A stretch of DNA of 64,000 bases from positions 18,522,573 through 18,586,572 of the forward strand of contig NC_049984.1 of the NCBI RefSeq assembly GCF_000003815.2. Direction: 5' to 3'. Positions 12,641 through 51,971 of this stretch are shown piece by piece. The stretch comes from Branchiostoma floridae. Lineage: Eukaryota > Chordata > Leptocardii > Amphioxiformes > Branchiostomatidae. Numbering within the stretch: position 1 is the first letter of the stretch; each line of letters starts with the position of its first letter. The notes under the pieces were generated by a model. It did not search any database, was not told the DNA's origin, and saw only the letters and a program-made list of their open reading frames with translations. Both the position numbers and the translations under genes were made by a program.

Positions 12641-25781
<13,141 letters not shown>

Positions 25782-43200: not shown

Positions 43201-46200
43201 CAAGTAAACAATTACAATGTGTACTTATGAACAGGATGAAGTGGAGAAAGTTGAAGAAAGACTGATTGCAGCTGCATGAGTGTCTAGACCACTGCAGCAG
43301 CAGAACACAGTTGACTACTACTATGTATTTATCCATCTTTCTGAACGTGAAAGGAACTGTGCACGTGACCTCACCTATTCTGGCGATGGGGATGCCGCTC
43401 TGCATAGTCATGACTGTCGTGTCCACGGCAGCTTGAACCGAGGGGAACGAGCACACAGCTGCCATGATCTGTGAAACAGGAGCCATGTACTCAGGTCAGA
43501 TTGAACCAATTGGTGAATAATTGGCAAATAGAAAAAAACAACATTCTTCTCTAGCCAAAAAATCATGTAATTTGACAATTAGGGGTGGGTACAGGTACAG
43601 AAAATTCAGGTTCAGGTCCGGTTCAGATCCAGAGAATCAGGTCCAGGTCTGGAGCTGAACCTGAACCTAATTCAGTATGTGATAACTTGTGAATACTCAG
43701 AACAATGGTCCATTCTGCTACAAAGAAATCTGTATGGTGGAGTATTTGAGTCCCACTGGAGTTTTAAAATCCGGCAAGGCTAACTGCCACTATACGATTC
43801 AACTGCAAAACTTGGTAGAAATGACAATAAACTCTTCTTCGCTCTTGTTATTTTCTTCAACCTGTCATCCCCAAAAGAGTAAATTTGTCATCATTTCACC
43901 TCTTCATTTTCTAATAGGACCAACATCCCGTCTACCACATTTTTACTAAGTCCAATAAGAAAAGACGGTTTTGTACTGGTACATTGTACGATGTACACCC
44001 ATATCGACAACACAAGTGAAGACTTTCTGACACCCACAGTTTCTGGTATTCCAAATAGTCTGAGCGTCGCCTTGGTGATGATACCCAGCGTGCCCTCTGA
44101 CCCCACATAGATGTTCGTCAGGTTGTAGCCTGCTGCAGTTTTCCTGCGGATGTACAAAGACATGAGCAGCCATTTCTTATTGAACCATACGAGAAGAGGT
44201 AAAGATCAGACAAAGGATGACAAAGATACAGATTATACAATGGCTGTCCTAAATAGTCCTGTCTCAGTAGCATGGACTTCTTCTGATATAGGATATGTTT
44301 TGCAGCCAAGTCCTGTAGTGCTACAGTGAGATTTGGAAGTCGAATAAAATTTTTACCTTCTTTTACCTGGTAAAGTATAGAGAGCTCATCATATTTCTGT
44401 AACCTAAAGTTTATCATTTCCAAAAGACCAGTACAGTAGAAGTCAGTTAATTGCACAACGGATTAACGCACACTTCTGTTAACTGCACAGAATCCCAAAA
44501 TCCCAAACCGATGCGGTCCAGCTAGATAACTTCGCATTATTCACTGTCAAATAGGCCATGCAATTAAGCGTCTTCTACATTAGAACTTTGAATATCACAT
44601 TAAAGTACAAATGGCGCCTTACTTTGTCCTCCTGTCCTTCCCGGCAGTGTTGATGATCGTTCCGTCTGGCAGCACGACCTCCAGGTTTATCACGTTCTCC
44701 CGCATCGTCCCGTACCGCACGGCGTTGGTGCCGGAGGCGCTGGTCGCCGCCATGCCACACAGCGAAGCATCTGCACCCGGATCTGTATCATTAGGAAAAC
44801 TTAACTGTGTCAGGCCACAGCTATTGAACTTTTTGGTTCTTGAATTTAAAAGTATAATGCTTAATAATGCAAATCAGAATGAAATTCTGAGGAAGATTTT
44901 TTTTCTGGGAGTAAATATAGTCTGTTCTCATCTCATGTACTTACTACATTTTTTCTTCAATGTGCCTAGAGTTGCCTCTATCAGGCTCCGCAGATCGGTG
45001 GTCTAATTGTAGAAATTGGACAAATAGAGTCTATAGTACACTAGGGGAGTTGGCCAGCCAGACGATAATGGACAGAGGACAATGGATAAGTGAGTGAGTG
45101 AGTGGACGGCCGACTACCCTATAGCATACTATTGACTCTATCCAATTTCTACAATTAGACCATCGATCCTCAGAGCCAGACCCTACTTCTAACCCACCTA
45201 CCTACAGGGAACCACAGGCCCGTGTCACGTAGGTAGGAGTTGAGTGCGTTCCTCGTCACTCCAGGCTGTACGCTCACATCAAAGTCTTCAGGATGGAGAT
45301 CTAAGACCTGATCCATCCTGGTCAGGTCAAGACACACACCGCCCTGTACAGGACAAGGGGAATCTTTTAGACATCTTATACTTACGCCACCTGATTACCC
45401 CTGTACTGCTTAAATACAACGTTGTGGAGGCTTTGGTGCAATGCTCATGGAATGTTAAGATACTGAAAATACAAAATCTTCATAATGTAACAACATATTG
45501 CAGCAACAGTTATCACTTCATGAGCATAGAGCTAAGCAGTAAAAAATAACAGTTATTACTTATTACAACTGTGAACAAATCATATACTACTCTTTGTCAG
45601 TGATTAGTGATGGACCTTTACCTAACTACTGCTGACACTTCACTGTCACTGCTTGTCTCCCTCTCTCTTTTCATGTAGCTCTTGATAGATGATACACACA
45701 CACAGACACACATATATGGACAGAGATGCAGATAGATACATTCATGTAGATAGACAGATGGATTAATAGAGGTGAGTGTGAATGAAGACTTGAAATGTCC
45801 TCCATATTTCTATATTTCTATCAACCATGATTTTCAGTCCTACCAATAACTTATTGAATAAAATTAAAATACACCAAGGCCACACTGATCTATTTTGTCG
45901 GTTCTCTGCCTTTCAAAGTGAAACGAAAGAGAACAAATTTTAACAGAGGCCAGGAAGAAAAACTTTAACTATATTCACCAAGGTAACGTAACAGACCTGC
46001 TACCTTCAAATTATATGCAGTGCTTCTAGCCAGCCTAGATTTTGAATTTAGAAATCCTGTTGAGCGCTGAAGGCGCAACGATCCTAGAGGGGTCCGGGGG
46101 CATGCTCCCCCTGGAAAATTTTGAAATCCAGACCCTCCTGCCATTTCCTGCATTTGAAGGGGCAAATTTTTCTTGGATCAATGGTATCTGTTGAAATATT

Positions 46201-47910
46201 TTTACTTGCCGATTTTGGTCCATCATAGAGGACGGAATGGGCAAAATTTTTGTGCGTCCCCAGCAGCAAATTAAAATTCCATCAAAGGACAGAAGGGCGG
46301 ATGCTGGCTAGAACCCTGTTTTTCAGATCAGTGGTATGTTTTTTGATGCGAGAACAACAAAACAAATTGGTGTGGCCCATGAAAGACGAAAGCTTACCCT
46401 GGGCGCGCTGACACCCGACTCCAATCCTGTGCCCGTACCAAATGGAATCATGGGTACATTGTTGTCATAACAGATCCTGGCAACTTTGCTGACAGCGTTT
46501 GTAGTCTCCGGCCAGACAACGACATCAGCTGGTTGTGGCCTGTTCCATTTCGTTTTATTCAAAGCGCCGTTAGCAAGAACAAGCACAACAACAAAATAAA
46601 CAAGCACACAAAAGCATAGATCCTAAGCCCTTTTTGGATAAACAAGACATAAGTTAGCAAAGGCTCTGCAAAATACATATATTGAATTTGCAAAATGCTA
46701 GCAAGCTGAATACATTATTGAAGCTGCAAGTACACTAGATGTTAATTTTAAAAGCAGCCTGTATCTATCTCAGTAGTACTGTGAAAATGAGATGGACCCT
46801 GGGCCCACTCAGCTCTTGTGTTGTTCACTGATCCACATGACATTTGTCAAGCCTGTCAAAGAAGGCTGAAAATTTACAATGTCCCACCCCAACCTCTGCT
46901 TGGAGATTACTGGAGGTTGACGACCTCAACTCGAGACATTTTTGTTAGATATTAAACCTAGAATCATGGCAACCAGGCTACAAAAAGATGTAACTTTAAA
47001 GGTTGAATAACGGTTGAACTGTACATAACTACATGAGAAATTCACATATATATCATAACAGTTGTATATGTACATGGGGAAAGTTGAATCATTATACTAG
47101 TAATTGAATTGATATATTACACGTGGTAAGACTCGTCCTTCCCATGCTGCTCCCTGACTGCGAATGATGTGGAGACGTTCTTCAGCCCGACCGCTGCGGA
47201 CAAGGCTTCCACCAGGGTGTCAGGCAGACGGCACGTCTGAAAGGATGGGGAAATACATGAATGCTTAAGTTATAACGTTATCTGGAGACTTTTTCATTGC
47301 CATTACAGCAGCAGCCATAACATGGATCCACAGTACCCATTTCAGTCACATTTATTTTAATAGGCAGCAGAATTTTGACAATTTTGCTGTTGTTGTTGTT
47401 GACAGTTCCAACATTACCGCAAGATGATACAGATGCCTTTGACCAAATCCATAGGCCCCTCAGACTCCGTTTTCAAGTTGCTCTGACCAGATCAGCATCA
47501 GATTCCAATACCCAACATATTACTACTTGTGACCTTTAAAAGCCTGGTCATAAAAGGTGAGTTGAACTAGAAACAAGGACGAAATACAAAACGCCTTTGC
47601 TAGAATTTTTATAGAAACGACTGAAACTGACTTGTTGTTGTCATATGTAGAATCAAGCTGACTACAACAGCTTTGCAAAAGTACATTTGTGCCAAATTGC
47701 TATTTTCGTCCAACAGCATTGCGCACATAACGTAAGATCCCTATATGATATGTCACGTTAATAGTTGCAAAATATAACGTTATAACATAAACAGTGCGTC
47801 CTTGAACCCTAAAAAGCTCCCTTCCCTACCTCTGGAGTCCCAGGACAGTAGGTCCGACTGATGACCCCAGCCGGCCGGTACAAGCTGCCCACTACACGCA
47901 GGAAGTTCAT
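40272..47910 (-). CDS. LDHD: D-lactate dehydrogenase, mitochondrial (FAD-linked)
   Basis: Twelve minus-strand exons, 47910-47830, 47236-47121, 46539-46398, 45343-45202, 44782-44623, 44143-44038, 43468-43375, 42696-42568, 41935-41808, 41349-41259, 41097-40986 and 40443-40272, join in phase to 490 residues (human about 507). The enzyme oxidises D-lactate and related D-2-hydroxyacids to 2-oxoacids, passing electrons via FAD in mitochondria. The N-terminus is basic and hydroxylated with no acids early ([19 protein letters not shown]), a plausible targeting peptide. The FAD-binding PCMH domain runs from about residue 66, with [31 protein letters not shown] and [18 protein letters not shown]. The C-terminal FAD-oxidase domain has [35 protein letters not shown] and [11 protein letters not shown], and the product ends MNPEKVIPV. 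The human orthologue is linked to D-lactic aciduria. It is head-to-head with RPL14. Confidence 0.95.
40574..40753. repeat. Fold-back repeat in LDHD intron 11
   Basis: GGGGGTGGGTG..CTAGTTTCAAAATTGG on the left is the imperfect reverse complement of CCAACTTTGAAACTAG..CACCCACCCCC on the right, and an inner pair surrounds GGGAGTTTGCC. A nonautonomous element is likely. Arms are about 36 bp. Confidence 0.6.
41496..41775. mobile_element. AGTGCTTGAAATAC MITE
   Basis: Perfect 14-bp terminal inverted repeats (AGTGCTTGAAATAC / GTATTTCAAGCACT) bound 280 bp in LDHD intron 9. The right half (AAGTTGCGCCAA, GCAAGTGGTATTT) resembles 51260-51575. Confidence 0.7.
43580..44003 (+). mobile_element. hAT-like MITE, copy 4 (oldest)
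   Basis: Starts TAGGGGTGGGTAC. The right end is decayed to TGTACACCCATA. Flanks TTGACAAT (43572-43579) and TCGACAAC (44004-44011) agree at six of eight positions. It sits in LDHD intron 6, its end about 35 bp from an exon. Confidence 0.75.
44993..45168. mobile_element. Palindromic MITE in LDHD intron 4
   Basis: GATCGGTGGTCTAATTGTAG at the left and CTACAATTAGACCATCGATC at the right are inverted copies, and pairing continues through AAATTGGA and AGAGTC to arms of about 45 bp. 176 bp long. Confidence 0.75.
46022..46314 (+). mobile_element. GTTCTAGCCAGC-family MITE, copy 3
   Basis: GCTTCTAGCCAGCC at the left and GATGCTGGCTAGAAC at the right. Shares AGAAATCCTGTTGAGCGC and GGACAGAAGGGCGGATG with copies 1, 2 and 4. 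In LDHD intron 3. Confidence 0.75.
46540..47120 (-). other. LDHD intron 2
   Basis: About 580 bp of AT-rich sequence between the second and third coding exons. I see no repeat boundary or RNA gene in it. Confidence 0.5.
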
Positions 47911-48471: not shown

Positions 48472-51400
48472 ATGGTGAGCATCTCCAGTAGATTTTTCAC
48501 GTCAAAAATAGACAGAAAGAGCACATTTCACGCATTCTTCTGGCCTAGAAACATAGCATACCGTTGTTTGAATGTCACGGATCGTAATGGATGGATACAA
48601 GTTTGGCTATATTCCGTTCATTTGTTGAAAATTGTTCGTTTCTGTGGGACACCTCCATGCCATGCCGTATGCCGGTTGGGCCGTTCCAAAAAATAAATGT
48701 GGGGGGTGGGTTGAAGAGGTCAGATTTTACTGAGGGGGGGTCAAGGAAATCTTGGATTTGGATTTCGTTTGAACGGGGGGGTCAAGATAAGTCTGGATAT
48801 GGGTTTTTCTACCAAAAAGTCAAGAAAATCTGGATTTGGATACTTTTACTCCTATCTCAGTTACAGTACTGTAAGGGCAAGGTTCTAGGATGAAAATTAT
48901 GAGGGGGTAAGGTTACTCAGATGAAAAAAAAGGGGTATAAGAGGCATTTGGACCTCGGATGAAAGAAAGGGGGGGTTGGAGCTCTCGGATGAAATTAGAG
49001 GGGGGTCGAGGCACTCGGATGAAATTCAATGGGGGGGTCAGGCACTCGGATGAAATCCAAAGGAGGGGTGAAGCAATTGGAAAATCCAACCTCTTCAACC
49101 CCCCCTCCACATTTATTTTTTGGAACGGCCCATTACAACTTGCAACTGCAGCAGAAAGTCGACGTGGTTCACTCAAACTCCTAAAATTCACGTTTATACT
49201 AGAAGCACTTTTTTGCTATTTTTATGAGCCATAAAGAACTCTTCATCATTTTTGTGTTCCTAAGTGGTATGGTTATCAAATTTGACGATAACACTGGAAA
49301 ATTCCACGTAAAAGATCAGTCTACTTACGACTTATGTTCACATGGTTTGTAAAAGCAAGGAGGATTTTCAACCTCCTTGGTAAAAGGTGATAATTCGTGT
49401 AAGAAAAGATATTAGGGTTTTTATTTGCAGTGCTTGTGTTAGCAATAGTACTTGGATAGGATCAAAATTATGCACGATACTATGTTTGTCATGTAGTAGT
49501 ATGAATAATTTTGATGTGCAAATTGAACAATACAAAAGTGAGTTTTTTTAATGGTTTGCTACTTATACATGTTCCATTTTGACTGACGTGACGCTCTTTC
49601 ATGTACAGGTGTACAGACGGTTTGTCGAGATCGGCCGTGTGGCCTTCGTGCGTTTTGGGCAGGATGAGGGCAAGCTGTGCGCCGTGGTCGACATTGTAGA
49701 CCAGAACAGGGTGAGTAACTCCATGCAGTCAGCCATGTTGCAGAGGCAGAAAAAAGGCCTCTCATGTTTTTATTCAACTGTTGAGTCACAGCTGAAACAT
49801 GTTACTAGTACTAAATACTCTAGTGTCAATCTTCAGGCAGTATGCAAAACTCATCAACATAAAAGATATGGATAAACTGTGACAGTCCTACTAATCACAT
49901 TGTCGTCAGTGGCAATAAAAGTAATTTTTAGCAGAAAACTGCCTCAAGTCCGTTCAGATAAGTAAGCCAAGTGCTTCTAAACTCAAAGTACATGTACGTA
50001 TGATTGAGAAATCGCACTTGTGCATTCTTACTGGGGCACTTCCCCTATTGTGGGGTATCTGCCATTCTTTGAATGCCAGAGTAAGGTTCCTTCTCCACCG
50101 AGACTGCTATCTACGTTTGCTTTCTCAACTAAAAAGGAACGACAGCTGACTTGTCATACAACCTTGATTTTTAACCACTAGGCTTAACTTGTAGACATCA
50201 AAGATGAAATATATACGGTAAAAATACCTTATGATAAAACTGATTCTTCTCTTCAGGCTCTTGTCGATGGCCCCAACATCCGCCGCCAGGCCATCAGCTT
50301 CAAGTTCCTCCACCTGACCCCAGTTGTGATCACCATCGGACACGGCTGCGGCACCAGCGCCGTGAAGAAGGCCTGGGAGAAGGAGGGTGTGGAGGAGAAG
50401 TGGCGCCAGTCCACCTGGTACAAGAAGCTCCAGATGAAGGCCACGGTACAGGCACATTTATGTTTCTTTGTGGCTGTATATAGATTTCTTTAAATCTTGA
50501 TTTGTCTTGCAAGTGTCATGATGCAAGGTTCTAGCCAGTATCCGTCCTTCCATCCTTTGACGGCAGGGGACAGAAAAATGTTGACCATTCCGTCCTCTGT
50601 GACTGACAAAAATTGGCATGTAAAGATATTAAACAAATAAAATTTTGCAAATCTGCAGAAATTAAGTGTACTCTACTAGCAAAATTTTCTCCTCAAAATG
50701 AAAAAAATAGCATTTTGGTGGGTCTTTGATTTCAAAATTTTTCCAGCCCCCTCCTAGGACTGTCTTGTGGAAGCCTCTGCCGCTCAACAGGATTTCCATT
50801 CAAAATCCAGGGGACGAAAAAAATTCAGGCTGGCTAGAACACTGTCATAATGATATCCGATTGAAGAAGTATGATTATATAAACTATAAGGATACTCCCC
50901 AAACCATGCTACAAAACTTTGAAATTAAAAAAAAAGAACATGAGAAATTTCTCTTGGGCATTCTTACTGGGGCACGTCCCCTGTTGTGGGGTATCTGCCA
51001 TTCTTTGAATGCCAGAGTAAGGTTCCTTCTCCACCGAGGCTGCTGTGTACGTTTGCTTTCTCAACTAAAAAGGAACGACACTCAACTTTCCATAGTACCT
51101 CTTTATGTATCATCATGTCCATTGGTGGTATTGCAGAGGATTAGCATAAAGTATGTTGCATATGAGATCCTTGCTTGATCATAAAGTCTTTTATGTTACA
51201 ATGTAATATCCGTAGTAAACACACCATACCTTACCTTAGTCCATAGACATACTGGTACAGTGTACAAAATACTTTTCTGAGTCAGATTGCACAGTGTGCA
51301 ACCTGGGGCAAAAACTAGGTTGCACAACTGAATTTCAAGTTGCACCACTGATTTCTGAAAAAAGGGTACAATACATACATACAAACATAACCTTTTACTA

Positions 51401-51971
51401 TCATATTACTTATAAGCATGTTTGTTTTGAACTAAAAATCAAGTAACTTAAAAACAATAGTATCTATCATATTTGAAAATTACAAAATTGAGTTCTGAGG
51501 GTCAAAATTTTAGAAGTTAAGAAGTAAGTTGCACCAAACTAAAAGTGGTTGCAATGTGCAAGTGGTATTTTGCACGTTGCGGGTACCATCTGAGGTGGCA
51601 AATTCTCCTTGTGATTTTTGAATAGTAGAAGGCCTGCAACATATATTCTTATGTTTTGTTTTTCATTACAGAGAAAACAGCTCTCCGACTTTGACCGCTT
51701 CAAGTTGATGAAGGTCAAGCAAAGGGTAAGACATCAAATTAGATTGGAATAAGATTTGAAGATGACAAAATGCTGTTTGCATATTATAGTTTCTATCTTG
51801 TTTTATCATCTCATATCTGTTGATAGTAAGCATGGGTGGGGTTGATTTGAATGACATGTCTATGTAGTTCAGGTATGTCTGCTTTCTTGCTGAGTTTCTT
51901 TTGTTCTTCTTCAGCGTTCCTGGCTGATTAAGATGGAGATGGGCCGTCTGAAGAAGGCGCAGAATAAGTGA
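48472..51971 (+). CDS. RPL14: 60S ribosomal protein L14 (eL14)
   Basis: Exons 48472-48474 (ATG alone), 49609-49710, 50257-50445, 51672-51725 and 51915-51971 join to 134 residues. The start [20 protein letters not shown], the segment [19 protein letters not shown] and the helix [14 protein letters not shown] identify eL14, a large-subunit protein with an N-terminal SH3-like barrel. The long Ala/Lys tail of the vertebrate protein is missing, as in most invertebrates. The first coding exon is the start codon only, a common plan in ribosomal protein genes. Introns 2 and 3 each carry an H/ACA-like RNA. A poly(A) signal lies at 52007-52012. Confidence 0.95.
48678..49131. mobile_element. 454-bp inverted-repeat element with G-rich subrepeats
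   Basis: Left GGGCCGTTCCAAAAAATAAA is inverted at the right as TTTATTTTTTGGAACGGCCC, and pairing continues inward through TGTGG and TTGAAGAGGT for over 40 bp. The interior has several diverged ~28-bp units of GGGGG..CACTCGGATGAAAT (about 48930-49070). In RPL14 intron 1. Confidence 0.8.
50019..50147 (+). ncRNA. Candidate H/ACA box snoRNA, copy 1
   Basis: Lies within RPL14 intron 2, ending about 110 nt before the acceptor. Hairpin 1 closes with GCATTC (50022-50027) against GAATGC, and has an apical CCCC/GGGG stem. The H box AGAGTA (50078-50083, ANANNA) follows directly. Hairpin 2 closes with GTTCCTT against AAGGAAC. The ACA box at 50142-50144 leaves three nucleotides to the expected 3' end. 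Such RNAs guide pseudouridylation of rRNA or snRNA with dyskerin. The target and vertebrate name are unknown. Confidence 0.75.
50528..50840 (-). mobile_element. GTTCTAGCCAGC-family MITE, copy 4
   Basis: Starts GTTCTAGCCAG and ends GGCTGGCTAGAAC, with internal CCATCCTTTGACGGC and CAACAGGATTTCCATTCAAA blocks of the family. In RPL14 intron 3, between the coding exon and snoRNA copy 2. Confidence 0.8.
50955..51083 (+). ncRNA. Candidate H/ACA box snoRNA, copy 2
   Basis: In RPL14 intron 3. Very similar to 50019-50147 over the whole two-hairpin unit, with the differences mostly outside the lower stems. Hairpin 1 closes with GGCATTC against GAATGCC (one base pair longer than copy 1). The H box AGAGTA is at 51014-51019, hairpin 2 closes with GTTCCTT against AAGGAAC, and the ACA box at 51078-51080 has three nucleotides after it. 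Similarity ends close to the expected RNA ends, as for a duplicated gene rather than a random repeat. Confidence 0.75.
51260..51575. mobile_element. Probable MITE related to 41496-41775
   Basis: Ends GTGTACAAAATAC and GTATTTTGCAC are imperfect inverted repeats. The right half (AAGTTGCACCAAA, GCAAGTGGTATTT) matches the LDHD intron element. In RPL14 intron 3. Confidence 0.5.

Follow-up and report, generated by a model that had tools for sequence, protein, structure and literature searches.

Described systems closest to the amphioxus locus

Box H/ACA snoRNAs encoded in introns are trimmed from the spliced, debranched intron and are bound by dyskerin, NHP2, NOP10 and GAR1. The closest described counterparts of the RNAs considered here are two separate vertebrate RNAs, ACA41/SNORA41 and ACA4/SNORA4, for which chicken provides the details. 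GGgACA28, the counterpart of ACA41, is assigned to 18S-1598 through its 5' pocket and resides in EEF1B2, while GGgACA26, the counterpart of ACA4, is assigned to 18S-1305 through its 3' pocket and resides in EIF4A2 (PMC2653536 Table 2). Yeast snR83/RUF3 is given as a functional homolog of the chicken ACA4 counterpart (PMC2653536). Passages of the same study describe snoRNA paralogs duplicated in cis in neighboring introns of one host gene, as well as recombination of guides between snoRNAs. The host gene, too, has a precedent: Drosophila RpL14 hosts two intronic snoRNAs (PMC4028297), and RpL14 is named as a snoRNA host (PMC13228274). Among the open-licence PMC matches listed, as represented by their titles and abstract starts, none describes a pair of such RNAs in amphioxus RPL14. 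Neither is there a catalog of amphioxus H/ACA RNAs among the matches listed, which are not exhaustive, and passages of PMC2246290, PMC8480181, PMC12239590 and PMC2780460 contain nothing on an RPL14 H/ACA RNA.

Here we analyze a 64-kb stretch of the 513-Mb amphioxus assembly (C6:18522573-18586572, hereafter referred to in its entirety as the window), in which RPL14 carries one such unit in each of two neighboring introns. Our analysis indicates that these intronic units very probably encode a box H/ACA snoRNA directing the pseudouridylation of 18S rRNA at the equivalents of human Psi1643 and Psi1347.

Structure and location of the two RPL14 units

The joined exon translations match the Pfam family Ribosomal_L14e (PF01929, 1.6e-29) and the eL14 chains of solved ribosomes in PDB (best match 2.4e-41; 51 distinct sequences at E<=1e-10), confirming RPL14 as the host gene proposed in the initial annotation. 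The units were located where that annotation had placed them, one in intron 2 and one in intron 3 (Table 1). The length of about 129 nt given there needs correction, as each unit measures 126 nt including the ACA and the three nucleotides after it.

Table 1. Coordinates of the RPL14 introns and of the predicted snoRNA features in the window
Feature	Positions	Strand	Basis
RPL14 intron 2, hosts copy 1	49711..50256	+	GT...AG splice sites; flanking exons match eL14
RPL14 intron 3, hosts copy 2	50446..51671	+	GT...AG splice sites; flanking exons match eL14
Copy 1, predicted mature box H/ACA snoRNA, intron 2, 126 nt	50022..50147	+	fold, duplicate, descriptor, boxes
Copy 1, 5' hairpin, 5' guide strand UUACUGG	50028..50034	+	internal loop; pairing with own 18S
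Copy 1, 5' hairpin, 3' guide strand AUUCUUU; predicted pocket for human 18S Psi1643 equivalent	50064..50070	+	fold; own 18S pairing
Copy 1, H box AGAGTA, 14 nt past upper stem of hairpin 1	50078..50083	+	fold, box position
Copy 1, 3' hairpin, 5' guide strand CUCCACC	50093..50099	+	fold; own 18S pairing
Copy 1, 3' hairpin, 3' guide strand AACUAAA; predicted pocket for human 18S Psi1347 equivalent	50127..50133	+	fold; own 18S pairing
Copy 1, ACA box	50142..50144	+	box position, 3 nt before predicted 3' end
Copy 2, predicted mature box H/ACA snoRNA, intron 3, 126 nt	50958..51083	+	fold, duplicate, descriptor, boxes
Copy 2, 5' hairpin, 5' guide strand, same as copy 1	50964..50970	+	copy comparison
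Copy 2, 5' hairpin, 3' guide strand, same as copy 1	51000..51006	+	copy comparison
Copy 2, H box AGAGTA	51014..51019	+	box position
Copy 2, 3' hairpin, 5' guide strand, same as copy 1	51029..51035	+	copy comparison
Copy 2, 3' hairpin, 3' guide strand, same as copy 1	51063..51069	+	copy comparison
Copy 2, ACA box	51078..51080	+	box position

Minimum-energy folds of both copies reproduce the arrangement described initially, namely hairpin, H box AGAGTA, hairpin and ACA plus three nucleotides. The closing stems GCATTC/GAATGC and GTTCCTT/AAGGAAC, said to be kept in both units, are present in copy 1 as well as in copy 2, and the internal loops of both hairpins are symmetrical (7/7 nt). The units show the sequence and structure features of the box H/ACA class: two hairpins with internal-loop pockets, a hinge between them that contains a match to the H box motif ANANNA, and a short tail with the ACA located 3 nt ahead of the predicted 3' end. 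The distance from the top of the pocket to the box is 14 nt in hairpin 1 and 15 nt in hairpin 2, within the class range of 14-16 nt. Fold energy by itself is moderate evidence at most, since copy 1 has a z-score of -2.56 (5/200 shuffles fold equally well) and copy 2, folded from 50959 and so 1 base short of the closing stem, has a z-score of -1.46 (12/200 shuffles).

Applied to the 64-kb window, a strict two-hairpin H/ACA descriptor, in which lower stems have at least 6 bp, matched only copies 1 and 2 on the + strand and nothing on the - strand, against a chance level of 0.48 matches per strand on average (60 resampled 64-kb strands). With a looser descriptor there were 8 places on the + strand and 5 on the - strand of the window, compared with a chance mean of 3.18. 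Further loose H/ACA-like matches between 44 and 60 kb are those at window positions 46522 and 55030 (+) and 57023 (-).

Pattern of divergence between the copies

The initial annotation had noted that the two segments share sequence over the whole unit. This holds: a repeat search aligned 50005-50164 with 50941-51100 (160 nt, 89% identity, spacing 936), and within the core, from GCATTC through ACA (123 nt), 118/123 positions are identical and 5 are changed. The immediate flanks are less similar, with 4/17 nt differing upstream and 8/20 nt downstream (12/37 together), and the difference between core and flanks is significant (5/123 versus 12/37, Fisher p = 1.3e-5). Beyond these near flanks the similarity is at the level of chance (74/100 and 67/90 positions differ). 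That similarity falls off where the RNA is predicted to end is what one would expect if a processed RNA were under selection.

The changes within the core are also unevenly distributed. All five are apical, with 2 changes in the 29 apical positions of hairpin 1 and 3 in the 27 of hairpin 2, and one of them retains its pair as G-U. None of the 28 guide bases, 26 closing-stem bases and 9 hinge bases differs between the copies (0/63 in total). Taken alone, the apical bias of the core changes has p ~0.02. Since all four guide strands are identical, the copies would be isoforms with the same two targets and not two different guides.

It might be argued that only one copy is a working snoRNA and that the other, recently duplicated, is decaying into a pseudogene, which would leave the guide RNA assignment unaffected. 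In other animals, many copies of snoRNAs lack function, and copy 2, though folded one base short, has the weaker z-score (-1.46 versus -2.56). However, neither copy has lost a box, a closing stem or any of its four guide strands, and the core has changed only apically while the flanks have drifted. We consider the decay of one copy rather unlikely and regard it as probable that both copies work.

Genomic copy number and neighboring mobile elements

Searching the 513-Mb genome at the DNA level produced two candidates; both were scored, and both proved to be matches, copies 1 and 2 themselves, although strongly diverged copies could escape such a search. The presence of the unit at only two genomic places argues against a transposon. 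The initial annotation had named many genomic copies outside RPL14 with transposon ends as an observation that would speak against functional guides; with 2 matches in 513 Mb such copies were not found, and we rejected a transposable element as the source of the units on this ground. Retroposition of the bare RNA is likewise unlikely, because the similarity extends beyond the unit on both sides, reaching 17 nt before it and ~20 nt past it.

Mobile elements do occur nearby. Beside copy 2 in RPL14 intron 3 is a MITE-like element (window 50524-50844), and the window contains related stretches at 17753-18106, 21530-21826 (reverse) and 46034-46318 (reverse). Another element (window 48677-49132), which precedes RPL14 exon 2, has 52-nt terminal inverted repeats that are 92% complementary, with 352 nt between the arms, and holds a short direct repeat.

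The MITE-like element and its relatives are what could be put forward in favor of the units being copies of a mobile element, or else a pair of hairpins arisen by chance. Yet the element overlaps neither unit, the DNA search of the genome gave two matches only, and the result of the strict descriptor and the fit to 18S rRNA targets described below speak against it as well. This makes a mobile or fortuitous origin of the units exceedingly improbable.

Predicted target sites in 18S rRNA

The 18S rRNA of the same genome was found by DNA search (L016:231-2046) and identified by RF01960 (1727.7 bits); its numbering is used for the sites below. Uridines of this 18S rRNA were scored against each pocket, and significance was estimated from letter-shuffled guides. 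The scan, proposed in the initial annotation as a search of both pockets for a complementary uridine in rRNA, returned a best site for each. For the 5' pocket it is site 1592 (cgaggaau[U]cccaguaga), with a score of 28.1 against 17.2 for the next uridine; 0/1000 shuffled guides reached this score. For the 3' pocket it is site 1301 (uucuuagu[U]gguggagcg), with a score of 25 against 17.9, reached by 9/1000 shuffled guides.

The predicted pairing has the bipartite form expected of the class, with complementarity on both sides of an unpaired U at 1592 as well as at 1301. The strands UUACUGG / AUUCUUU of the 5' pocket pair with own 18S ..CGAGGAAU[U]CCCAGUAGA.. at 14/14 positions, three of them G-U. 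The strands CUCCACC / AACUAAA of the 3' pocket form 5+6 contiguous pairs with ..UUCUUAGU[U]GGUGGAGCG... The 3' pocket is the weaker of the two, as there is one unpaired nucleotide atop each guide and ~0.3-0.9% of shuffles reach its score. In the region of L016:1822, own 18S has CCCAGUAGA after the Psi1643-equivalent, whereas C(C/U)AGUAAG is found there in human 18S, in L001 and in the Rfam consensus. Guide pairing at this variant is preserved through a G-U.

The same two sites also come first in other 18S sequences. In an unrelated eukaryotic 18S (L001), shuffled guides reached the scores in 0/2000 and 12/2000 cases, although for the 3' pocket a rival U scores 24.5 versus 25. In the Rfam consensus (1218-1691) the corresponding numbers are 0/2000 and 14/2000. 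Both L001 and L002, members of a viral collection, contain eukaryotic 18S stretches; another viral scan gave none. Finally, the same two uridines are best in the 3' part of human 18S (shuffles 0/3000 and 8/3000), a sequence of ~625 nt numbered from its 3' end; there, the sites are 1643 and 1347.

This numbering puts the right base at 25/25 of the modified positions listed in PMC6182160 Table 1 (1248 is left out of these 25, though in range), compared with at most 16/25 if it is shifted by 1 to 3. According to the same table, human 18S 1643 and 1347 are both pseudouridines, 96% and 98% modified. The sites had also been considered as human Psi1692 and Psi1367, with SNORA70 and SNORA15 as the guides, but the 25/25 numbering ruled this out, giving 1643 and 1347. 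Literature differs on the U1692 guide, which is SNORA64 in PMC7760958, unlike in PMC7072173, where it is SNORA70.

Chicken site numbers can be converted to human ones through two reference sites. For the sites of ACA13 and U67 we take the human numbers to be 1248 and 1445, respectively. The resulting chicken-to-human offsets (PMC2653536) are 42 for the ACA13 site and 45 for the U67 site, from which it follows that chicken 1305 is human 1347 and chicken 1598 is human 1643. The number 1445 for SNORA67 is also given in PMC7760958. The sites predicted for the 5' and 3' pockets are, by sequence correspondence, the equivalents of human 18S Psi1643 and Psi1347.

Strong predicted guide pairing does not always yield guide activity in the cell (PMC8522698). 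The pockets might guide another RNA, such as 28S or an snRNA, or belong to an orphan RNA, the 18S matches being due to chance. The own-genome target scan was confined to 18S, and the score of hairpin 2 was reached by 9/1000 shuffles. On the other hand, no shuffle out of 1000 reached the match of hairpin 1, both best sites are known human pseudouridines, and the hairpin that each falls to agrees with the chicken assignments for ACA41 and ACA4. We therefore regard other targets as improbable and retain the two 18S sites as the predicted targets.

18S rDNA loci of the genome

The four main rDNA places, represented by 10 loci (several overlapping), carry both target sequences in every locus, while a locus from a fifth place (L014) has the first target sequence only. 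There is also a divergent class of 18S sequences at no fewer than five places (at least L015:1501-3259 on the - strand, two in C192, and those in C183 and C2). All 18S copy counts are lower bounds, as the best candidates were scored. The one divergent place that was read, L015, shares 94% identity with the main 18S; with a single mismatch in the first target site and a deletion across the Psi1347-equivalent site, it looks like an rDNA pseudogene. The divergent 18S places are thus probably rDNA pseudogenes. In L016 and L017, the 18S region gives way to a run of N.

At L003:7-37, close to one end of a contig catalogued under an alphaproteobacterial genome, 31 nt match eukaryotic 18S exactly. Rfam revealed no rRNA in 8 kb of L003, and the match is possibly contamination or a chimeric end.

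Relationship to known guide RNAs

None of the 4227 Rfam models reached its gathering score anywhere in the window. In a permissive search (E<=10) of 49700-51680 there were 7 matches, all low-scoring and all clear of both units. The Rfam check of both introns, suggested in the initial annotation, therefore turned out negative, the units being recognized by no family. We also searched the whole genome with the two families most relevant by predicted function. SNORA41 (RF00403) had no match at E<=10 (46 of 53478 first-look candidates scored), and the best match of SNORA4 (RF00394) was on another contig, at 36.3 bits versus a cut-off of 56 (52 of 43112 candidates scored). Each of these searches gave sub-threshold matches in 5/14 control genomes and none over the cut-off. 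Because so few first-look candidates were scored, the genome searches with SNORA41 and SNORA4 are weak as negatives.

In predicted function, the RPL14 RNA resembles both families. Like SNORA41/ACA41, it has a 5' hairpin predicted to guide the Psi1643 equivalent of 18S, and like SNORA4/ACA4, a 3' hairpin predicted to guide the Psi1347 equivalent. Unlike SNORA41, hosted by EEF1B2 in chicken, it resides in RPL14 and has a 3' hairpin that also fits the Psi1347 equivalent; unlike SNORA4, with EIF4A2 as the chicken host, it has the RPL14 host and a 5' hairpin that also fits the Psi1643 equivalent. By predicted function, then, the RPL14 RNA would work like SNORA41 and SNORA4 combined, but profile searches do not establish membership in either family.

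The mode of duplication has parallels as well. Similarly to the cis-duplicates described in passages of the chicken study, the amphioxus intron-to-intron pair keeps its guides and structure while the rest diverges; the difference is that it involves another RNA and another host. Since both cis duplication and guide recombination are known from chicken, neither feature is new in kind. The likeness to Drosophila RpL14 consists in the same host gene and the number of intronic snoRNAs, two. This resemblance extends to the host and not to the class of RNA. The Drosophila RNAs are box C/D U49 copies and not H/ACA RNAs, and the two cases are therefore probably independent.

Proposed function and origin

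The interpretation in the initial annotation is supported, with a correction. The box H/ACA guide identity is supported by the architecture, by pocket matches in 18S on two sites known as pseudouridines in human, and by core changes that are exclusively apical. The notion of two different guides does not stand, as the guide strands are identical.

By analogy with the class, the snoRNA would be released by trimming once the RPL14 intron has been spliced out and debranched, and dyskerin, NHP2, NOP10 and GAR1 would bind it, protecting both ends. It would then direct two pseudouridylations of 18S rRNA, one per hairpin. The two copies probably arose by duplication at the DNA level between neighboring introns. 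With identical guides, the second copy would provide dosage or backup and no new target, so that the copies may be regarded as redundant isoforms serving higher dosage or mutual backup.

A single two-headed RPL14 RNA may do the jobs that in vertebrates are split between SNORA41 and SNORA4, using the same hairpins as in chicken. Vertebrates would then have split an ancestral two-site guide, with one head retained by each descendant, or else recombination would have joined the hairpins in the amphioxus lineage, with doubling between introns to follow; we give this scenario roughly even chances.

The RPL14 RNA is a new example of the known box H/ACA class and not a new kind of RNA. What is mildly novel is that both predicted target sites are joined in one RNA that is present in two copies. 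As no Rfam model exceeds its cut-off in the window, annotation by family can miss guide RNAs of this lineage that a combination of fold and target matching can nevertheless find. The locus also offers a concrete case for studying how guide hairpins are reshuffled between snoRNAs at a fixed modified site. Moreover, duplicates in neighboring introns, with guides frozen and apical parts drifting, constitute a natural test of selection within an H/ACA RNA.
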